NCBI GenBank assembly: GCA_015039365.1
Contig: WION01000234.1
Coordinates: 19,271 to 83,270 of the forward strand
Length of the DNA stretch: 64,000 bases
From: Amanita rubescens
Taxonomy: Eukaryota > Basidiomycota > Agaricomycetes > Agaricales > Amanitaceae
Reading direction: 5' to 3'
In this document: piece after piece, positions 5,642 through 48,890 of the stretch
Layout of the letters: every line of letters starts with the position of its first letter
Position numbering within the stretch: position 1 is the first letter of the stretch
Position numbers and translations under genes: made by a program
Notes under the pieces: generated by a model
Database searches by the model: none
What the model saw: the letters and a program-made list of their open reading frames with translations, nothing else
Told to the model about the DNA's origin: nothing

Positions 5642-5742
5642 TGTTAAATATAGAATTATATTTATAGAATGATTAACTACTGATTGACTACAATCAATGT
5701 TACTCATATCGCTCGCGTCATCCTTTATGTATGACATAGAGA

Positions 5743-5805
5743 TGACATCATAATGACTTCATTATGATATCATGGTGACATCATGATAGACTCATGATCA
5801 CATCT
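5743..5805 (+). promoter_or_regulatory. Cluster of TGACATCAT-like motifs in LTR U3
   Basis: About 60 bp hold repeated and partly palindromic ATGACATCAT, TGACTTCATTATGA, GTGACATCATGA and GACTCATGATCAC motifs. They resemble bZIP (CRE/ATF-type) sites. They are present in both LTRs and could drive stress-responsive transcription; binding is inferred only. Confidence 0.45.
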
Positions 5806-16625: not shown

Positions 16626-17031
16626 TGTTAAATATAGAATTATATTTATAGAATGATTAACTACTGATTGACTACAATCAATGTTACTCATATCGCTCGC
16701 GTCATCCTTTATGTATGACATAGAGATGACATCATAATGACTTCATTATGATATCATGGTGACATCATGATAGACTCATGATCACATCTTATGGTGTGCT
16801 TAGCACGCCATATCTTCTCATCTATACTATACACTTACACATATGTATTACATATTTGTTCTCTCTTAGTATATAAACCTGTCCTGTATCGTAGAATAGG
16901 ACAATCCATTCTCTTCCTCTTACTATCACTACTACGCCGAAGGGTAGTGCTAAGATCATATCGCAATAGGTAAGCTATTGCACCTGCTCATGCTGTGGAC
17001 ACGCTCTCGCGTAGACCTGTCTTCTTCGTCA
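16626..17031 (+). repeat. 3' long terminal repeat
   Basis: This 406-bp repeat matches the 5' LTR except for one missing T. It has the same TATA box (16870-16877) and TGACATCAT cluster. The target duplication GGAAC follows at 17032-17036. Confidence 0.95.
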
Positions 17032-39329: not shown

Positions 39330-41974
39330 ATGTCTCGTTCTGACTCTCAACTCATCGAGGCTCTCGTCGCACTCGAAAAATGCTCTCCAAAACTCGTAAA
39401 ATCTGCAGTTTATCCAGCACCAGCAGAACCAACAACTCTAGTTCGTAGTTGGAAGATGAACGAATTCAAATATTACGATATTCCTTCTCCTTTTCCAACT
39501 TACGCTCGTGGTCTTTTTACCATCGATGACCGTATCGTCGTACGTGGATACGACAAGTTTTTCAATATCGGAGAAGTTCCTTGGACTGAGGTCAGTAATT
39601 TCGTTACTATTCATCCTTCAACTCTCACTCTACTTTTAGTGGTCTTTTCTCGAGTCTCATACTCGCTCTCCTTACATTCTCTCTCTCAAATCAAATGGAT
39701 GCATTATCTTTATCGCTGCACTCTCTTCATCAAAGCTTGTCGTTACTTCAAAACATTCCCTTGGTCCAGTCACAGGACAAAGCCAAGCTCACGCTCTGGT
39801 TGGTGATGTCTGGCTGAAACGCTATCTGGAACAAAAAGAAAAGACAGAGGCAGATCTCGCAAAGCATTTATGGGATAACAACTGGACCGCAGTTGCCGAG
39901 GTACGCGTCATCGTCGTGTTTTGTTCTTTCCAACTCATCCTTAACCCCTATAGCTCTGCGATGACTCGTTCGAAGAACACGTCCTTCCATACCCACCAGG
40001 CAAAACAGGGTTATACCTCCACGGCATCAACACCTGCACAAAAGAATTCTATACCCTCCCTCCAGAGGCCGTAGATGCTTTTGCCGACGAATGGGGATTC
40101 ATCAAGACAAAATACATCACGCTGGACTCGATCTCAAAAGTCCGCTCATTCACAGACGATATCCGCAAGACCGGAACTTGGGAAGGCGAACCACTAGAAG
40201 GATTCGTCGTCCGTACCCATATCACGGAACCTCCCGCATCCGCCTCCCGTGCCGATAAAGCCACGGCGGGCATGTTACCTTATACCCCCGGCTCAACCTT
40301 TTTCTTTAAAATCAAATTCGACGAACCCTACCTCATGTACCGCGATTGGAGGGAAGTAACAAAATCCCTCCTAACCATGAATGCGAAAAACGGGACTATG
40401 AATCCGAGTAAATTGTCAAGGTCAAAGATGGTTCGGCCAGAGACGAAAGTTTATGTGGATTGGGTTATCAAGGAAATTAAACAGAATCCGAAAGCGTTTG
40501 AGCAGTATCAGCATAACAAGGGGATTATCAAGACGAGGGAGATGTTTTTGGTGTGGCTGGCATCGAACGACGGGAAGAAAGTAACTGAGGAACCAAAAGT
40601 CGAACAACAACAACCCCAGCCTCGGTTCACGAAAACGATCATTGTTCCAATTGCTATTCCCGGGTGCGGAAAAACCGCCGTCTCAGTCGCCCTCGCTCAC
40701 ATCTTCAAATTTGGACACACTCAAAGTGACGACGTTCGCGCCAAAAAAGCCGGTCCCGCCTTTGTCAGAAACGTGATGGAGTTGTTAAAGTCTCATGATG
40801 TCGTCATTGCAGACAAGTACGTACTATATGCGTACTCTTTTAGCTAAAACTCTAACTCTCTCTGCAAAGAAACAACCACCTCCGCCAACACCGCACCGTT
40901 CTACGCGAAGAATCTTTCAACCTATTCAAAAAACAAAAGAAAAAAGCCTCCAAAGCAGGGAACGACCCAGATCCGGCTGACGAGGATACCTCCCGAGCTA
41001 GGCTCCTTGCTCTTCACTGGGATTCCTCCTCCCAACCCCCCGCTACGATCTTCACCACATGCGCTGAACGCGTCCGTTCACGAGGGACTAACCACCAAAC
41101 CCTCCGCGCACCCCCACAAGCGCGTCCCCCCTCTCCCTCTCCCTCTCTCTCTTCCAACCTATACGAAGACGTGATTTGGAGATTCATAAGAGAGTCGGAG
41201 GATCTCCTCCCTTCAGAAGTAGACGCGATCATCGACATGCCTATAAGCGAAGGGTTGGAAGAAAGCGTGCGTCGTGCCGTAAACGGTATCGTAAAAGAGC
41301 TTGGTCTGACTATGCCAAGCGAGGAAAAGGTGAAGGAGGGGATCGAGAAAGTCAAGGCTTACAAGGTTGCGGAGAAGGCTAAGAAGCCTGATCCTCCCCC
41401 CGTTGAGCCACGGTCTACTGGCACCACAGCGCGGTATTACGCCTTTTTACCGGATATCGATCTAGAGACGATGTTGGAGCCCGTGTTTGCGTCGTCCAAT
41501 GACGAGTTTTGGGCGCATTTGAAGAAGGGCCGGTTGGCGTTTAAACCTCACGTGACGATCGTACACCGTAAAGAGTTGCCGGTTTCTCAATTGTTGTGGG
41601 AGAGATGTGAGAAGCTCGTGAACGAGAATGCGGGTGCGATGTTTGGTTTGAGAGTGATGAATGTTGTGTGGGATGGGAGGGTTATGGCGCTTACTGTGGA
41701 TGGCGTCATTCCGTTTGAACTCGACGGCAAACAGGATGGAGAAGACGGGCGAGCATATAAGCTTGCGAAGGAGTTTGTGAAGGAGTTGCCAGACGAGGAA
41801 CGGGAGCGGTTACACATTACAGTTGGAACGAAGGATGCGGAGATTGTGCCTTTTGAGGCAAAGGTGCTCGTCATGGGTTGGAGGAAGGGGGAGAAGAATG
41901 AGGCGCTGAAGGTGCTGGACTTGGGTCCTAATGGAATTACAGTCAAGGCGAGGATAAGTGGGATGTGGTCTTAG
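39330..41974 (+). CDS. TRL1: Fungal tRNA ligase TRL1
   Basis: Four exons (39330-39590, 39640-39900, 39954-40816, 40870-41974) give 829 residues. The N-terminal adenylyltransferase domain has the nucleotidyl-lysine motif KSNG (LSLKSNGCIIFIAAL) and EGEPLEGFVVRTH. The central kinase has the P-loop IAIPGCGKTAVSVAL and DVVIADKNNHLRQHR split by the third intron. The C-terminal cyclic phosphodiesterase has its two H-x-T motifs (FKPHVTIVH and ERLHITVGT). The enzyme heals and seals tRNA exon halves and HAC1 mRNA. All three active sites are intact, so this is the functional copy. Fragments of the same gene occur at 43726-44020 and 54000-54605. Confidence 0.95.
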
Positions 41975-42336
41975 TGGTTGTTCATCATTGACACTCGTGT
42001 ATTCCTAGCATTTTAATACACTCAGTAACGCCGGCAGTCTTTTATGTCTCGTGAATTGCCGTGCGCTGCTTGGGTGTCTCGCGTATCGCCGTGGTCTCGG
42101 GAAACTTCGGAACAACTCCAGGCGCGTACTTGTCGAAAAGCTCTCTAAGCTCCGCTTGGGAAAGTCTAGACTAAAGCAGGGTCAGCGTTGCGTCGACCAG
42201 AAAGGCGCATACAATTTTGCATAAAATACTCGAAATCAAACACGCCCTCTTCTCGCAGATCTATTTCGTATTGGAGAAGCACGTGAGATGGATGACGCAC
42301 GGACGCAGACTTGTCACCCACATTTCAACATCCAAC
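41975..42336. other. Short spacer between TRL1 and HNH gene
   Basis: It contains the TRL1 3' UTR, part of which is copied at 43957-44010. No gene recognised. A frame open from 42217 joins the HNH gene but lacks a better start. Confidence 0.5.
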
Positions 42337-43542
42337 ATGGCCGCCATCGTTGAGCTTCAGATGCCAATCGATGGTGAATACCAGCCTGCGCTATCCATTC
42401 CTGTTGAGACGTGTCAGTGCTTCTCATTGCACCCTCTTAAGTGGTTGCGGTATGTCGGGTTTACGATCTATGGCACCAAAGGCCACATCTCCCGGTCCGC
42501 CTCTGGCCTGGCAGTGGTCCAGTATTCTGAGGTTGATATACAGGCTGGTGTTTATTACTATATACCCGACTCACAAGGCAAGTCATATTTCGGCGTCCAA
42601 GGACCCCTCAATGCTCATTCAATGTCAGATCCGTTTCTGCTTGACCCTGATTTGATGGACGACAGGACTTCATATTCATCAACTATCTCCACTCGCCAGG
42701 CTGATTTCGCACAGAGGGTGACTGCCAATCGCGACGGAACCTGTCTGATGACTGGTGTGACATCAAACTTTCAGGCGTGTCATATTTTCCCTCACGCAAA
42801 GGGAAGCCAGGTGAGTTCTGAATATTTGAATCACTCCCAGTTCTCATTCCAGGCCCAGTACATTACTGGTCTCGCCGATCATAGGAATGAAGTTTTGGAT
42901 CCACCCTTGGATGACATCAACGATCCACGTAACGGAATCCTGCTTTCCGTACAGCTACACAGGCCATTTGGGGCCTCTATCGTCGCTTTTTTGCAAGTTA
43001 GTTATTGTCTTCCATGTGGTTGAACTAATTCGTAGTAGACCCCCAATTTCGCGATGTCTGTCACTGACGTGGCCCGAGTCATGCAACCCATAGGCTTCAA
43101 TCCATCGCTCGCAGTCAGTCGCCTCACGTTTCAGCACTTCAATGCCCCTGATGTTGTCACCACGTACGTGGCACCTCACAACTCGGATGCGAGGCAACGT
43201 GTGGACCATGATGATTGGCCACCACCTCTTCTCTTCGACATCGCCTATGGTTGTGCTGCCCTCAACACCTGGGGAGTGCCTCAATTTGTGAACTTGGCCC
43301 GACAACGCACCAGGCATATTTACTATGACGGGGAGCCAGATGATGTATCGGGCGTTGATCAGAAACGTCGCCAGGCAGACTGCTTGATCGTGTTGCGCGG
43401 GCTGTCAGGCGAAGAGCAGAAAAAGAAGCAAGCGAGCAATACCAAGGCTGCGGACTCTCAGACCCCTGACATTGCTGACATTATCTTGGGGTTATGGACG
43501 TACAATGCGAAGGCAGGGTCAGCGTCCAAGCACGTGCAATGA
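42337..43542 (+). CDS. HNH-nuclease domain protein
   Basis: Three exons (42337-42810, 42853-42996, 43039-43542) give 373 residues. The N-terminal part (LKWLRYVGFTIYGTKGHISR; GVYYYIPDSQGKSYFGV) is a conserved fungal leader. The HNH fold follows: RVTANRDGTCLMTGVTSNFQ, CHIFPHAKGSQ across the intron, then NDPRNGILLSVQLHRPFG. The His of CHIF, the Asn of RNGI and the His of QLHR are the three catalytic or metal positions of the HNH_2 class. The C-terminal 165 residues are not recognised. Such genes are multi-copy in Agaricomycetes, of unknown role; DNA cleavage is inferred from the motif. The ATG has a good Kozak context (ACATGG). The gene sits between TRL1 and a copy of the TRL1 3' end. Confidence 0.82.
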
Positions 43543-43725
43543 AGGCAGAAAAGACTCGGGAGAAAGTCCGAGCATGGCTTGATTCTGCAAAAGATTAAGC
43601 ACGATTGTACAGTATCAAGTATTCAAGTTTAGGTTAGCATCAAGTCATTTCTTATTTTGCCAAGTTCATCGAGTGTAGCAGAAGACTTGAATAACAGTCA
43701 CCTGAACATCGACATTCGAGCACCT

Positions 43726-44020
43726 GGAGAGCGAGCGTACTATAAGCTTGCTGAAAAAGTTTGTGAAGGAGTTGGATGAGGAATGGGAGCGGTTACACAT
43801 TACAGTTGGAACTGAAGGATGTAGGGATTGTGCCTCTTGAGGCAAAGGTGCTCGTCATGGGTCGGAGGAAGGGGGAGAAGAACAAGGCACCGAGGGTGCT
43901 GGATCTGGGTCCTAATGGAATTACAGTCAAGGCAAGGATAAGTGGGAAGTGGGCTTAGTGGTTGTTCATCTTGAGATGCATTGACACTCATGTATCTAGC
44001 ATTAACAAGTTGGCACCCTG
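43726..44020 (+). pseudogene. Duplicated 3' end of TRL1 including 3' UTR
   Basis: This is a diverged copy of TRL1 from about 41745 to 42017. It has GCTTGC, the TTACACATTACAGTTGGAAC stretch (second phosphodiesterase motif), GGCAAAGGTGCTCGTCATGG, GGTCCTAATGGAATTACAG, and the stop followed by TGGTTGTTCATC. An extra A and other changes disrupt the frame before 43776. From there LEAKVLVMGRRKGEKN through VKARISGKWA stays open to the stop at 43958. It cannot encode an enzyme; it marks a partial duplication. Confidence 0.9.
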
Positions 44021-44811: not shown

Positions 44812-47800
44812 GTAATGTGACCATATCTTGATAACCAGGGTGCAGAAATTCAGCAGTAATTTCAGTCTTCAGCTTCTGAGCATAGCAGTTTTGCTGGTAT
44901 TGATACAAGGCTTGTGTAACAGATGGCAGAAATGCTCTGTTGATCCAAAAGGATAGCTTGGCAATGACAATAATTGCTTCAAAGTTTGAGCATAAATACA
45001 GTAAATGAAAAGGAATAATTTACAAACTAAGATCTGGCAACCAGTAGGCTTGTTGCAATGGTATCAGTTGCATATCATTCAGAAAGGAAAGAATCAAATA
45101 CCATGATGGCAAAGTGCCGTTTCCTGTCTCCAAACATGGAGAAAAGTTCATCCTAGTTAGTGTGAGATTAGTGTGACAGTAAAACACCCAATGTATCATC
45201 AAACCTACACACTAGCATGCAAACTAATGTGAAAATCAATGCCTCATTAACCACCACCACTTACCTAGAAGTAATATAAATGACAACAAATTATCACATG
45301 AGGTGGAAGTGGGTGGGCTGAAGTGAAATCTTACAATCTATGATGATAATAATGTAAAAGGAAGACATGGAAAAGATATGGCAATATGCTCACTTTCTGA
45401 TATATGTAAGATTGTGATGAGGACTCCCTTTCACAAAATGTGCAACATCACTCACTTCCTGTTGGTCATAGGAAAAGCTGTGATGGGACTCCCTTTCACA
45501 AAATGTGCAACATCACTCACTTCCTGTCAGTGATAGGAAAATACATATGTGATGAGTCTGCACTTTCACAAAATGTGCAATGTCACTCACAAGCTGTTGG
45601 TCATAGGAAAAGATGTCATGAGAGTCATGAGACTGCCTTTCATATAATGTGCAATGTCACTCACTCCCTGTTGGTCATAGGAAAAATTTGATGAGACTGG
45701 CTTTCATAAATGTGCTGGTCACTCACAAGCTATTGGTCATAGGAAAAAGTTTGAATGAGACTGGCTGTCACACAATGTACATTGAATGTCACTGACTCGC
45801 TGATGGTCATAGGAATTGAAAGGATGTCATGAAACTGGCTTTCACAAAATGTGCAATGTCACTCACAAACTGTTGGTCACAGGAAAAGGATGTGATGGGT
45901 CTACCTTTCACAAAATGTGCAATGTCACTCACTCCCTGTTGGTAATAGGAAAAGATCTGATGAGACTAGGCTTCACAAACTGTGCAATGTCACTGACTCA
46001 CTGTTGATCATAGGAAAAGAGTCTGCCTTTCACACAAATGTGCTAATATTACTCACAACCTCCAAGTTGGTAGGAAAGGATGTGATGAGCCCATTGCCTT
46101 TCATAAGATGTCCAATGTCACTCACAAACTGTTAGGTCATAGGAAAAGATGTGATGAGACTGCCTTTCACATAGTATGCAATCACTCACTCCCTGTTGGT
46201 CCGATGTGATGACTGCTTTTCATAAAATGTGCAATACAACTCACCCCCTGTTCAACGGCCATAGGAAAAGATGTGATGATATGTACTGCCTTTCACAAAA
46301 TGTACAACAGCACTCACTCCCTGTTGGTCATAGTAGGAAAAGATGTGATGAGATTGTCTTTCACAAAGTATACAATTTCACTCACTCCCTGTTGATCATA
46401 GAAAAGATGTGATTAGACTGCATCCACAAAAATCTTCAATGTTGTCACTCACATCCTGTCAGGAATAGGGAAAAATACTTAGAGTAGTTTTCTAGAAATA
46501 TTTGCAATGTTACTCACATACTGTAGGTCACAGGAAGTTTTTTGAAAAGATCATCTTTGAGATCAAGCTGGCATGACACCGACCTTCTATAGGAAAAGAT
46601 GTGATTTCACTGCTTAGTACTCACAATATCACTCACAATCTGTAGAACATGAGAATGTCTCCAGAGTGTCTTGCAGCAGAGCAGCTAGCAACACTCACTT
46701 CCTTTAAGAATTAAATTAGCATAATGAGTTGGGAATACAGAAAACAATGGCACTGACTCTCTTTTGCCATAGTATTTCATATGATGAATTCAAATCTCAC
46801 AAAAGTATCACATACATCCTGTTTGTGTTGCAATAGCTTGTCAAGAGAAATTGGAAGGGGGAGATATTGATATTTACTGTCTGTTGTTTTGGGACAAGAT
46901 GTAATGTTTATAATCAGACAGAGGGAAATGTCACTTACTTCCTGTTATTAATACAATGAAGTTTGCTGAGCATTGATTTCAAATAACAGTAAGTCACCCA
47001 ACTTTCTATTGTTCATTGAATTATGTAGAACTTGGGCAACATCAATGTTGCTTACTTTCTTTAAGCAGGTCAGATGTGGTGTGAGGCAGTGTTGTGTTAC
47101 TCACTCCCTGTCCATGAAGGATTGACAAGTCTGCTTACAAAGATGGAGTAACTTACTTGCTGTTGGTCACCATAGGATCATTTACCAAAAATCAAAATTG
47201 GGTCATGTCACTCACTTCCTGTAGAGTATTGGAGATAAGACTGCTGATGGTGAAAGGACACATTGCTCACAAACTGTTGTCATGAGAAAATATATCAGAT
47301 CTATGCCAGTTCAATGCCACTCACCCACTGATATTAATGTCATCAGATCCTGCCAGCAAGAATATGGTGACAACTAACCTCTGTTTCACTTAGTTGTTGA
47401 TTAGACATCTGAGGTATGACTGGTTTTTTTTTTCATTTGAAGGCAGTGGAGTGTTACTTACCTCCTGATGAACTTTTTGCAAGTCTTTGTCATTCCATAT
47501 GAAGGCCACCTACCTCCCTGTCAACCTATTGACATTATAACTTTTCCTATACTAATGTGCAGTTTGACCAAAATGCATACCCAGAAATGTGGAAATTTTG
47601 AAAAAACTATGATGATGACATGATCCCATGTCAAATGTTGATGTTTCAGAACATGTCTGAACATTGTCAATGTTAGTAAGTGACATTGTGAATTTGACCC
47701 TCACCGAAGTGCAGATTTAACACAAAGGTCAAGATTATTCATCTGTGTTGAAATAAACAGCTGGTGCATGCTATCACTATCTATGACATCAGCAGTTGTC

Positions 47801-48890
47801 TGAGTCAATTCAGCACAATCATTCTCTGGTAAATCCAGATCTATAAAAGAACATCACTCCCATTTTCAAGAAGAAATACTCATCATTCTCACCTTCAAAC
47901 CGCACAAATGCCTTGGGAGGATAGTTCACTTCCAAAACTTTAGGAAGATAAACTTGCTGAAAAGTGATTTCAGCAATGTTCCTGGCTCTCTCCCACTTAT
48001 CTTCATCATTCAGTTTGTATCAGTCAAGTTGACAAATGCACTTGCTATTTGACCATCAAATTTGGTGAATATAACCACCAAAGGAACTAGTAAAGGAAAT
48101 ATTTACTAGTCAGTACTAGTAATTTGTGGGAAGTAGGCCAATGGAAAGGAGGTACAATAGTTAATCTCAACCAGCAAGTACAACAAGATGAGATATGAAT
48201 TCATTAGGACTTGCCTCTGCCTGTCCCTTTATTGAAGAATTCAAGTTCAGCAGGTAGAATGGGACGAGGGTCATCCATGGGTATACAGTACCTAGAGGAA
48301 GCAGGTCAGCCAGTATTGTAATGGGCATAAAGCAAGATACCAAATTGCATGCAGCTGGTTTTTCAGCTCAGTTTCTGCAGACTTCTTTTCAATGAACTTC
48401 CAAGTAATCCCCAATTCCTCAGTTGAACCAGATTCAAAACCCAGAGAGTCATGGAAGATAAAGTTACTTCCAGGGTATGTAATTTGATGCTCAATATCAT
48501 GTTTGCCTCTCTGTTATCACTGCATGTAAATGGGTACATCTACACATTGGTCTGAGTCACCTCAAGTGATGGCATGATTTGAATCTGTTGTCCAAGCTGA
48601 TTACCTGCAAGAAGCTCAACAGCCAAAGGAAGCACAAAACTCAGACCAACTTACTACCATAATATATGATGGGCCTTGTCCCCCTTGCTACACCACAAAC
48701 CTTCTCAAGGATAGTTGTCTTGCCTGCATTAGCCCTCCCCATGACAAGAATGCGAAAGTGTGGGCATAGATAGTGCTCCCTGAGCATTTGAACATATGTC
48801 TCATCCACATCTGATGGTATATGTCAAGGATCAGCCATGCTGAGAAACATAAATTGGCCTACCCGCACTAGAAGTTGCAGTTGCCATCAT
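44812..48890 (-). CDS. GTPase gene with embedded micro-exon/intron array (possibly pseudogene)
   Basis: On the minus strand, starting MMATATSSAD, spliced exons encode VDETYVQMLREHYLCPHFR and the G1 loop LVMGRANAGKTTILEK, then EVTQTN, EHQITYPGSNFIFHDSLGFE with the G3 Asp-x-x-Gly, AIW/YCIPMDDPRPILPAELEF, a GC-AG intron, and VPLVVIFTKFDGQI with the G4-like TKFD. KWERARNIAEITFQQVYLPK, ENDCAELTQTTADVIDSDSM and STQMNNLDLCVKSALR follow. This is a P-loop GTPase family expanded in Agaricomycetes. A one-base frame slip near 48020-48030 needs checking. After a 26-nt exon at 47581-47606 come about 36 intron-like repeat units, then coding resumes on the same strand: a possible exon at about 45155-45105 (FSMFGDRKRHFAIM) and a clear one at about 45000-44812 (KLSFWINRAFLPSVTQALYQ; HPGYQDMVTLLYRQ). 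End and overall frame are unresolved. Confidence 0.6.
45335..47580 (-). repeat. Tandem array of about 36 intron-like units separated by 3-nt micro-exons
   Basis: Read on the minus strand, each unit of about 57-90 bp starts with a splice donor (mostly GTGAGT or GTAAGT) and ends in an acceptor AG, often ACCAACAG. The next donor follows after exactly three bases (GGA, GAA, TTT, CTT, CAA, GAT, TGG and others). Two spacers differ (4 nt at 47514-47517, 2 nt near 47379). Units at 45390-46500 are similar to each other (shared TGACATTGCACATTTTGTG and CATCTTTTCCTATGACC); those at 46500-47580 have lost most similarity but keep donor, acceptor and 3-nt spacing. The array lies between coding exons of the GTPase gene on the same strand. 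Confidence 0.8.

Follow-up and report, generated by a model that had tools for sequence, protein, structure and literature searches.

The window, a 64-kb stretch of the Amanita rubescens genome, carries on its minus strand a gene of a GTPase family in which a scan for splice junctions found an array of 34 exons of three bases each (AG|NNN|GT, 45335-47464). On the plus strand, a fungal tRNA ligase gene (Pfam RNA ligase, kinase and phosphodiesterase domains) is located at 39954-41974, and ORFs downstream of it (43633-43958) resemble a partial second copy of its C-terminal end. Between the tRNA ligase gene and the array gene, an ORF on the plus strand (42175-43023) carries an HNH_2 endonuclease domain (Pfam). 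A search of the 64-kb window against Rfam gave zero matches. The exon map of the GTPase gene was as follows.

48680..48811, minus strand: GTPase exon with the P-loop (CPHFRILVMGRANAGKTTILEKVC); Pfam MMR_HSR1 at 20.0 bits, just below the cut-off of 21.9
48340..48510, minus strand: GTPase exon RGKHDIEHQITYPG...LHAIW
48216..48290, minus strand: GTPase exon YCIPMDDPRP...
47891..48087, minus strand: GTPase exon VPLVVIFTKFDGQ... and KLNDEDKWERAR..., with an internal frameshift in the window copy
47704..47841, minus strand: GTPase exon DLDLPENDCAEL...CVKSALR
47581..47656, minus strand: final ordinary exon upstream of the array, HVLKHQHLTWDHVIIIVFSKFPHFW, ...FSKFPHFW, ending in phase 0
47514..47525, minus strand: 12-nt exon VDRE (P0002 has VDR after FPHLW)
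47462..47464, minus strand: one-codon exon GAG (E)
47379..47408, minus strand: 30-nt exon MSNQQLSETE (P0002 has TNEQLSETK before WFEKG)
46453..47327, minus strand: conserved block (introns included) of 16 exons with one codon each, W F E Q G K K E T D R E I K Y D
45456..46390, minus strand: variable block (introns included) of 15 exons with one codon each, G G G G F V stop G F R L G L E E
45998-46000, minus strand: the stop of the variable block in the window copy, TGA
45335..45396, minus strand: the two one-codon exons that close the array, AAA (K) and ATT (I)
45108..45152 (approximate ends), minus strand: probable exon DELFSMFGDRKRHFA (DELFSMFGD...) 3' of the array, resembling ELFSVFGEHSTFFSA in P0061
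44789..44977, minus strand: C-terminal exon AIIVIAKLSFWINRAFLPSVTQALYQYQQ...VTHI (AIIVIAKLSFWI...)

The first-pass annotation of this DNA had counted about 36 tandem units with micro-exons of three nucleotides. The 34 three-base exons stand, while some of the other units are probably the exons of 12 nt (47514-47525) and 30 nt (47379-47408). Its statement that coding exons of the same strand flank the array holds for the GTPase exons upstream and for the probable exon and the C-terminal exon downstream. Pfam gave just weak GTPase matches in the pieces of the window gene and in the database protein P0053, and no NACHT or NB-ARC domain with WD, ANK or TPR repeats. Since the window copy has a frameshift in its GTPase exons and one stop codon in its array, at both of which near-identical copies such as L009 are intact, it is probably a decaying member of its family.

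The acceptor of the window junctions was CAG in 26 of 34 and the donor was GTRAGT in 23 of 34. The introns measured 46 to 71 nt, with a single gap of 134 nt that holds the 30-nt exon. The strict pattern [CT]AG-N(k)-GTRAGT gave 21 matches in the array at k=3 and 0 at every other k from 0 to 9, while dinucleotide shuffles of the array gave 0.02 to 0.09 matches per k on average. Good junctions followed one another in an unbroken chain of up to 10 in the array, whereas no chain exceeded 3 in 300 shuffles or 2 elsewhere in the window. Part of this regularity is repeat identity, the proximal units forming a tandem repeat of period 65; the three-nucleotide spacing was also retained in the distal units of the window and in two distant paralogous arrays with diverged introns.

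A splice-site model with no preference for exon length, for which 95 distinct ordinary introns from genes of the family served as the training set, was run on 30 loci (near-identical copies included, but not the near-copies L004 and L010, nor L018 and L031, in which the C-terminal exon is missing). It placed 1020 of 1355 internal exons at exactly 3 nt, compared with 10 of 759 on shuffled sequence and 5 of 934 on reverse complements. Because the reverse complements gave a spurious peak of 426 exons at 8 nt, fixed spacing alone is weak evidence in repetitive arrays. A frame-aware splice model misplaced many exons at weak donors and was rejected, so the simple junction chain was used for the counts.

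Comparison of the conserved block in 24 loci (a set in which L001 replaces L009) gave the majority reading WFEQGKKETDREIKYD (W-F-E-Q-G-K-K-E-T-D-R-E-I-K-Y-D) in phase 0. Four of the 16 positions, namely W, F, E and the E of position 12, were invariant in 24 of 24 loci, and the final three were the least conserved. Identity between loci was 91.3% for the micro-exon bases and 83.0% for the aligned intron interiors, the introns being unequal in length in 2954 of 4117 pairs. The block is contiguous (WFEKGKKESDREIEYD) in P0002 and P0032, proteins of relatives from short jgi contigs that are uninterrupted where the genomic genes have introns. The sequence of P0002 (...VDRAVTNEQLSETKWFEKGKKESDREIEYD...) matched the majority residues at 13 of 16 positions and that of P0032 (...ANKQLSEAQWFEHGKKDTDKQIVYD...) at 11 of 16, in a single contiguous stretch, preceded by the VDR... 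and ...LSETK/LSEAQ that belong to the exons before the block. Judging from the absent introns, P0002, P0032 and P0053 probably derive from cDNA contigs. The best-scoring exon matches of P0002 in this genome were 79-83% identical (single exons at most 90%), and its source is a relative, since the genome has no closely matching locus. A search for more cDNA-like homologs of the segment returned only P0002 and P0032, another query returned just itself, and P0002, P0059 and P0035, used as queries in own-genome searches, led to relatives and not to the proteins' own loci.

The same comparison was made for arrays of another branch of the family. The loci L039 and L040 have 50 and 51 three-base exons chained, with one and two breaks, respectively, and encode about 50 residues with one codon per exon. 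Their introns were 74.1% alike, when random pairs are 72.2% alike, and their peptides aligned with a score of 75, the maximum of 2000 shuffles being 48. Against P0053, the peptide of L039 scored 66 (shuffle maximum 49) and that of L040 scored 94 (maximum 53) in 1000 shuffles each. Matches of L038 to the cDNA-like proteins were weak (15 of 1000 shuffles equalled its score with P0032 and 33 of 1000 that with P0002) and otherwise not significant. Apparent stop codons occur in the chains of L040 (two) and L038 (one).

Since paralogs conserve the codons at the protein level and the uninterrupted homologs have them in one contiguous run, they appear to be kept in the product, and the micro-exons are most likely included, translated exons. 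This agrees with the intron-like units and one-codon micro-exons of the first-pass annotation, and the micro-exons are in phase 0. It does not support another of its proposals, in which a ratchet removes one large intron stepwise. In such recursive splicing, the 3-nt pieces would be discarded or would be spacers of zero information. The strong donors and acceptors and the regular spacing would fit such a ratchet, but true recursive splice sites are AG|GT without a spacer, of which the strict pattern found 0 at k=0 in the window array, and the codons are conserved as protein and present in homologous proteins; we hold this explanation to be very improbable. Combinatorial splicing, in which subsets of the one-codon exons would be skipped to give many peptides per gene, would keep the frame with any subset because the exons are of 3 nt and in phase 0. 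However, the conserved block is complete in P0002 and P0032, and the variety between gene copies needs no skipping, which makes this a rather improbable account.

The window belongs to contig C151 of the 75.7-Mb genome. Long matches to the array DNA were found at 35 places in the whole genome, the window included, some of which are allelic or duplicate copies (L009 and L010 are 100% identical over 9.5 kb). A protein search of the genome with the GTPase part gave 348 exon-level matches. When 74 GTPase places were selected from longer tables, with allelic copies among them, 65 had a C-terminal match 3.1-7.7 kb downstream, whereas the coding distance based on P0053 is about 0.9 kb. Because these distances far exceed the coding distance, arrays are probably present in most members of the GTPase family. 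The database proteins P0001 and P0016 end at the exon ...CVKSALR, upstream of the array; as such gene models stop at the array or skip it, genes of this kind may be hidden in other genomes.

The commonest intron of the arrays, which we call the master intron, is 62 nt long and has 352 exact copies in the genome, with many introns of the variable blocks among them. Among the exact copies listed, those that could be placed were in genes of the GTPase family. Contigs C650 and C88 begin right with the master intron and C12 ends with it; assembly breaks thus seem to fall inside arrays, whose true lengths may be larger than assembled. These contig ends, together with the period-65 tandem repeat of the proximal part, could be taken to mean that the arrays are a meaningless satellite-like repeat or the result of consensus errors in the assembly of repeats. 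The probability of this is very small, since the anatomy persists in L039 and L040 despite their diverged introns and these two loci encode a homologous peptide, and L013, L014 and L015, on three different contigs, give mostly the same codon series. The first-pass annotation had asked for a control against a spacing that arises trivially from one repeat unit, and L039 and L040 provide it, as they keep the 3-nt spacing in diverged units whose codons encode a homologous protein.

Spacers between adjacent exact copies of the master intron were 3 nt in 134 of 148 cases and 0, 1, 2 or 4 nt in the other 14 of 148 in the loci that were fetched. The latter were located in L014, L016, L020 and L029, in which the frame is probably broken because of them. 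The column consensus of the 62-nt introns was the master intron in 18 of 23 loci and differed from it by one base in 5. In L023, L025, L034 and L036, the copies were 12-17% from their own consensus and this consensus was still the master intron or one base from it, when 7-11 consensus differences would be expected if the source had changed at an equal rate. Most derived variants were singletons. A constancy test with alignment to the master intron was invalid, since it gave back the master at 48-51 of 51 positions for ordinary and shuffled introns as well, and it was replaced by an unaligned consensus of the 62-nt introns and by a master-free alignment. The consensuses of L039 and L040 were related but different, sharing 41 and 38, respectively, of the 51 interior positions with the master, while ordinary and shuffled introns gave 27-29 of 51 and L038 gave 30 of 51.

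Changes in the introns were spread along their length except at the splice signals: position +5 was changed once in 391 introns, when the interior mean was 23.8. GT and AG were fixed by the procedure used to find the units. Interrupted junctions numbered 12 in 751 units, when about 95 in 391 would be expected without constraint. The splice signals of the array units thus appear to be under selection, as the first-pass annotation had suggested from the distal units, which do keep their spacing.

The variable block, which follows the conserved block, is a locus-specific series of 11-62 codons, and the counts given here were made with near-identical loci collapsed to 24 representatives. When pairs of units of one locus with flanks at most 2% different were compared (mean 0.4%; 1865 pairs, 1692 of them from L011, L012, L013 and L016), the micro-exon bases differed at 44%. 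The divergence profile along the pairs rose solely at the three micro-exon bases. In L011, for instance, 23 introns are the same 62 bases and the intervening codons are CGA, CTT, CAA, GGA and GAA. In L016 (G000:C13:578000-587500), a young array, almost every codon is CAA, CTA or CGA, so that variation is nearly confined to the second base, with identical introns between the codons. The variable blocks of L017, L019 and L036 have apparent exons of 6 nt with GCA as the second codon (CAAGCA, GAAGCA, CGAGCA).

Comparison of the 1447 pairs of units with identical flanks showed 1081 amino-acid-changing and 46 synonymous codon differences, while random single changes would give 27% synonymous. In the variable block, GGN was GGA in 84 of 86 cases and CGN was CGA in 108 of 113. 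The third bases were A or T in 96%, which is a possible splicing constraint that alone would lower synonymous change. TAA and TAG were absent from the 721 variable-block codons (closing codons removed), when 20.9 would be expected from base composition, ignoring the descent of codons from one another. Of 13 apparent TGA codons, 12 were mis-cut spacers and one was a real codon.

Neighbouring codons were identical in 128 of 697 cases, compared with a mean of 90.1 in shuffled series (0 of 500 shuffles as high), while codon identity at longer lags was not significant. This excess of identical adjacent codons points to duplication of whole units; L012 carries GGA GTT GTT three times over. The loci L013 and L015 are 99.75% identical over 9 kb and, in the region compared, differ by 4 substitutions in 162 micro-exon sites versus 4 in 3322 array intron sites, all four micro-exon substitutions being in two neighbouring codons and maybe one event. 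Although L012 and L029 share 98.4% identity over 3.3 kb, their codon series are unrelated. From these two comparisons, the codons appear to change faster than their surroundings. The correlation of codon variety with array age was weak (Spearman 0.35, P 0.10). The visible variety sits in the DNA, as both the codons and the lengths of the arrays differ from one gene copy to another. The window array thus belongs to a large gene family with a master intron and hypervariable codons, which goes beyond what the first-pass annotation had described.

The best explanation of these results, and one that we consider likely, is a coding array in which one-codon exons are diversified by unit turnover and selection. 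Each NNN would be a complete phase-0 exon of one codon and each gap a short spliceosomal intron, and in the mature mRNA the joined codons would encode a single peptide segment that follows the G domain and precedes the C-terminal helical domain, with the 16 conserved residues first, then the gene-specific variable segment and then K-I. Recombination between near-identical introns would gain, lose or exchange units. Because the repeat unit is an intron plus one codon, a change of unit would be a change of a single residue with the frame intact. Unit turnover would keep the introns similar to one another, selection for new amino acids would make the codons diverse, and the GTPase family may serve in non-self recognition. 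Of this model, the anatomy, the protein-level conservation of the codons, the contrast of variable codons with near-identical introns and the lack of stop codons are computed results, while splicing in A. rubescens, the contributions of recombination and selection and the recognition role are inferred. Two observations do not sit easily with this model: spacers of 0, 1, 2 and 4 nt between identical introns are not explained by selection on protein alone, and the constant intron consensus is not expected from plain unit turnover.

The constant consensus is better accounted for by an introner-like process, in which one 62-nt intron was copied, by mobility or from an RNA template, into a pre-existing segment of codons. 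The introns would then be alike as young copies of a constant source, and the codons would be older protein sequence. The 352 exact copies, the consensus that is exact in 18 of 23 loci and one base off in 5 despite copies diverged by 12-17%, and the derived variants that are mostly singletons all argue for such copying. However, independent insertions would not fill every codon boundary at exactly 3 nt, and the identical adjacent codons and the threefold GGA GTT GTT of L012 point to duplication of intron and codon together. The unrelated codon series of L012 and L029 in otherwise 98.4% identical DNA, and the position in genes of the GTPase family of those listed exact copies that could be placed, also speak against it, and as a full explanation we find it unlikely.

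The irregular spacers bear on another explanation, in which a mutagenic or junction-forming process rewrites the micro-exons when a unit is formed and selection just removes stops and frameshifts. Micro-exon divergence near saturation even between units with identical introns, and the spacers of 0, 1, 2 and 4 nt between perfectly identical introns (L014, L016, L020 and L029), would be expected of such targeted change. The fourfold-degenerate third bases are nevertheless hardly random (GGA and CGA being so strongly preferred), synonymous differences are rare, and we know of no mechanism that recognises exon ends in DNA, so we rate this process as improbable. A mixture of unit turnover with a mobile master intron is possible. 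In its boldest form, which we put forward tentatively and hold to be somewhat less than an even prospect, the coding-array model becomes a generator of diversity codon by codon. A constant 62-nt master intron would be copied repeatedly through the family, each residue of a recognition segment would have its own exon, and recombination between identical introns would rewrite the peptide residue by residue under intense selection with the frame safe.

If the coding-array model is correct, the protein would be split at every codon over 30-80 residues, which would be a gene architecture of its own and a severe test of the spliceosome on exons of 3 nt. The introns would be the recombining non-coding part of a repeat whose sole coding content is one selected codon. 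The result would bear on intron gain, through the copying and the constancy of one intron sequence, and on how fungi maintain large variable gene families. To our knowledge, a run of 34-80 exons of 3 nt has no precedent. A search of full-text literature, limited to open-licence papers, found no such architecture, which does not prove its absence from print.

Several known systems share a part of these features. Schistosome micro-exon genes have runs of tiny exons with lengths that are multiples of three and encode variable proteins; their exons are longer than those described here, their products are secreted with a signal peptide and their variety is produced by splicing. The zinc-finger array of PRDM9 resembles the arrays studied here in its near-identical tandem units with hypervariable codons, the contact codons in its case, but its units are 28 codons long and lie in one exon, without introns between them. 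Micro-exons and introner-like elements had been named as the nearest ideas in the first-pass annotation, and both are apt: the window contains 34 very short exons with conserved splice signals, and the genome contains 352 exact copies of one intron. The micro-exons of plants (PMC8831610) and Trichoderma (PMC11121469) are likewise exons of a few bases that are spliced in and missed by annotation, but they are isolated or in adjacent pairs, whereas here 30-80 stand in a row and nearly all are one codon long. Introners and introner-like elements also consist of many near-identical introns from one source that decay later, but in the accounts cited their copies are in unrelated genes, whereas the copies placed here are head to tail, 3 nt apart, in one family (PMC4457414, PMC9860276). 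Target-site duplications or terminal inverted repeats are described in about a third to two fifths of the assessable introner families (PMC9860276). In intron gain by tandem genomic duplication, a duplicated stretch becomes an intron, as here, but the events described in that source are single, whereas the units here are serial with one codon each (PMC4974935).

Fungal NLRs have near-identical repeats in which a few codons are hypervariable and under positive selection, and unit turnover by recombination together with selection is documented for their WD, ANK and TPR repeats (PMC4986451). The arrays share with the HNWD and ANK/TPR repeats their units that are near-identical both inside a gene copy and from one copy to another, their variable unit number and their hypervariable codons, but the unit described there is a whole repeat of a NOD-type protein (PMC4986451), while here it is an intron plus one codon in a GTPase gene. 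By this analogy, the arrays would be comparable to fungal NLR repeats in outcome, with the variable codon as the sole coding part of the unit.

Elsewhere in the window, two tandem repeats of an 11-nt unit (5741-5804 and 16725-16788) had the same length, score and consensus and were exactly 10984 bases apart; they are possibly the ends of a duplicated or mobile element.
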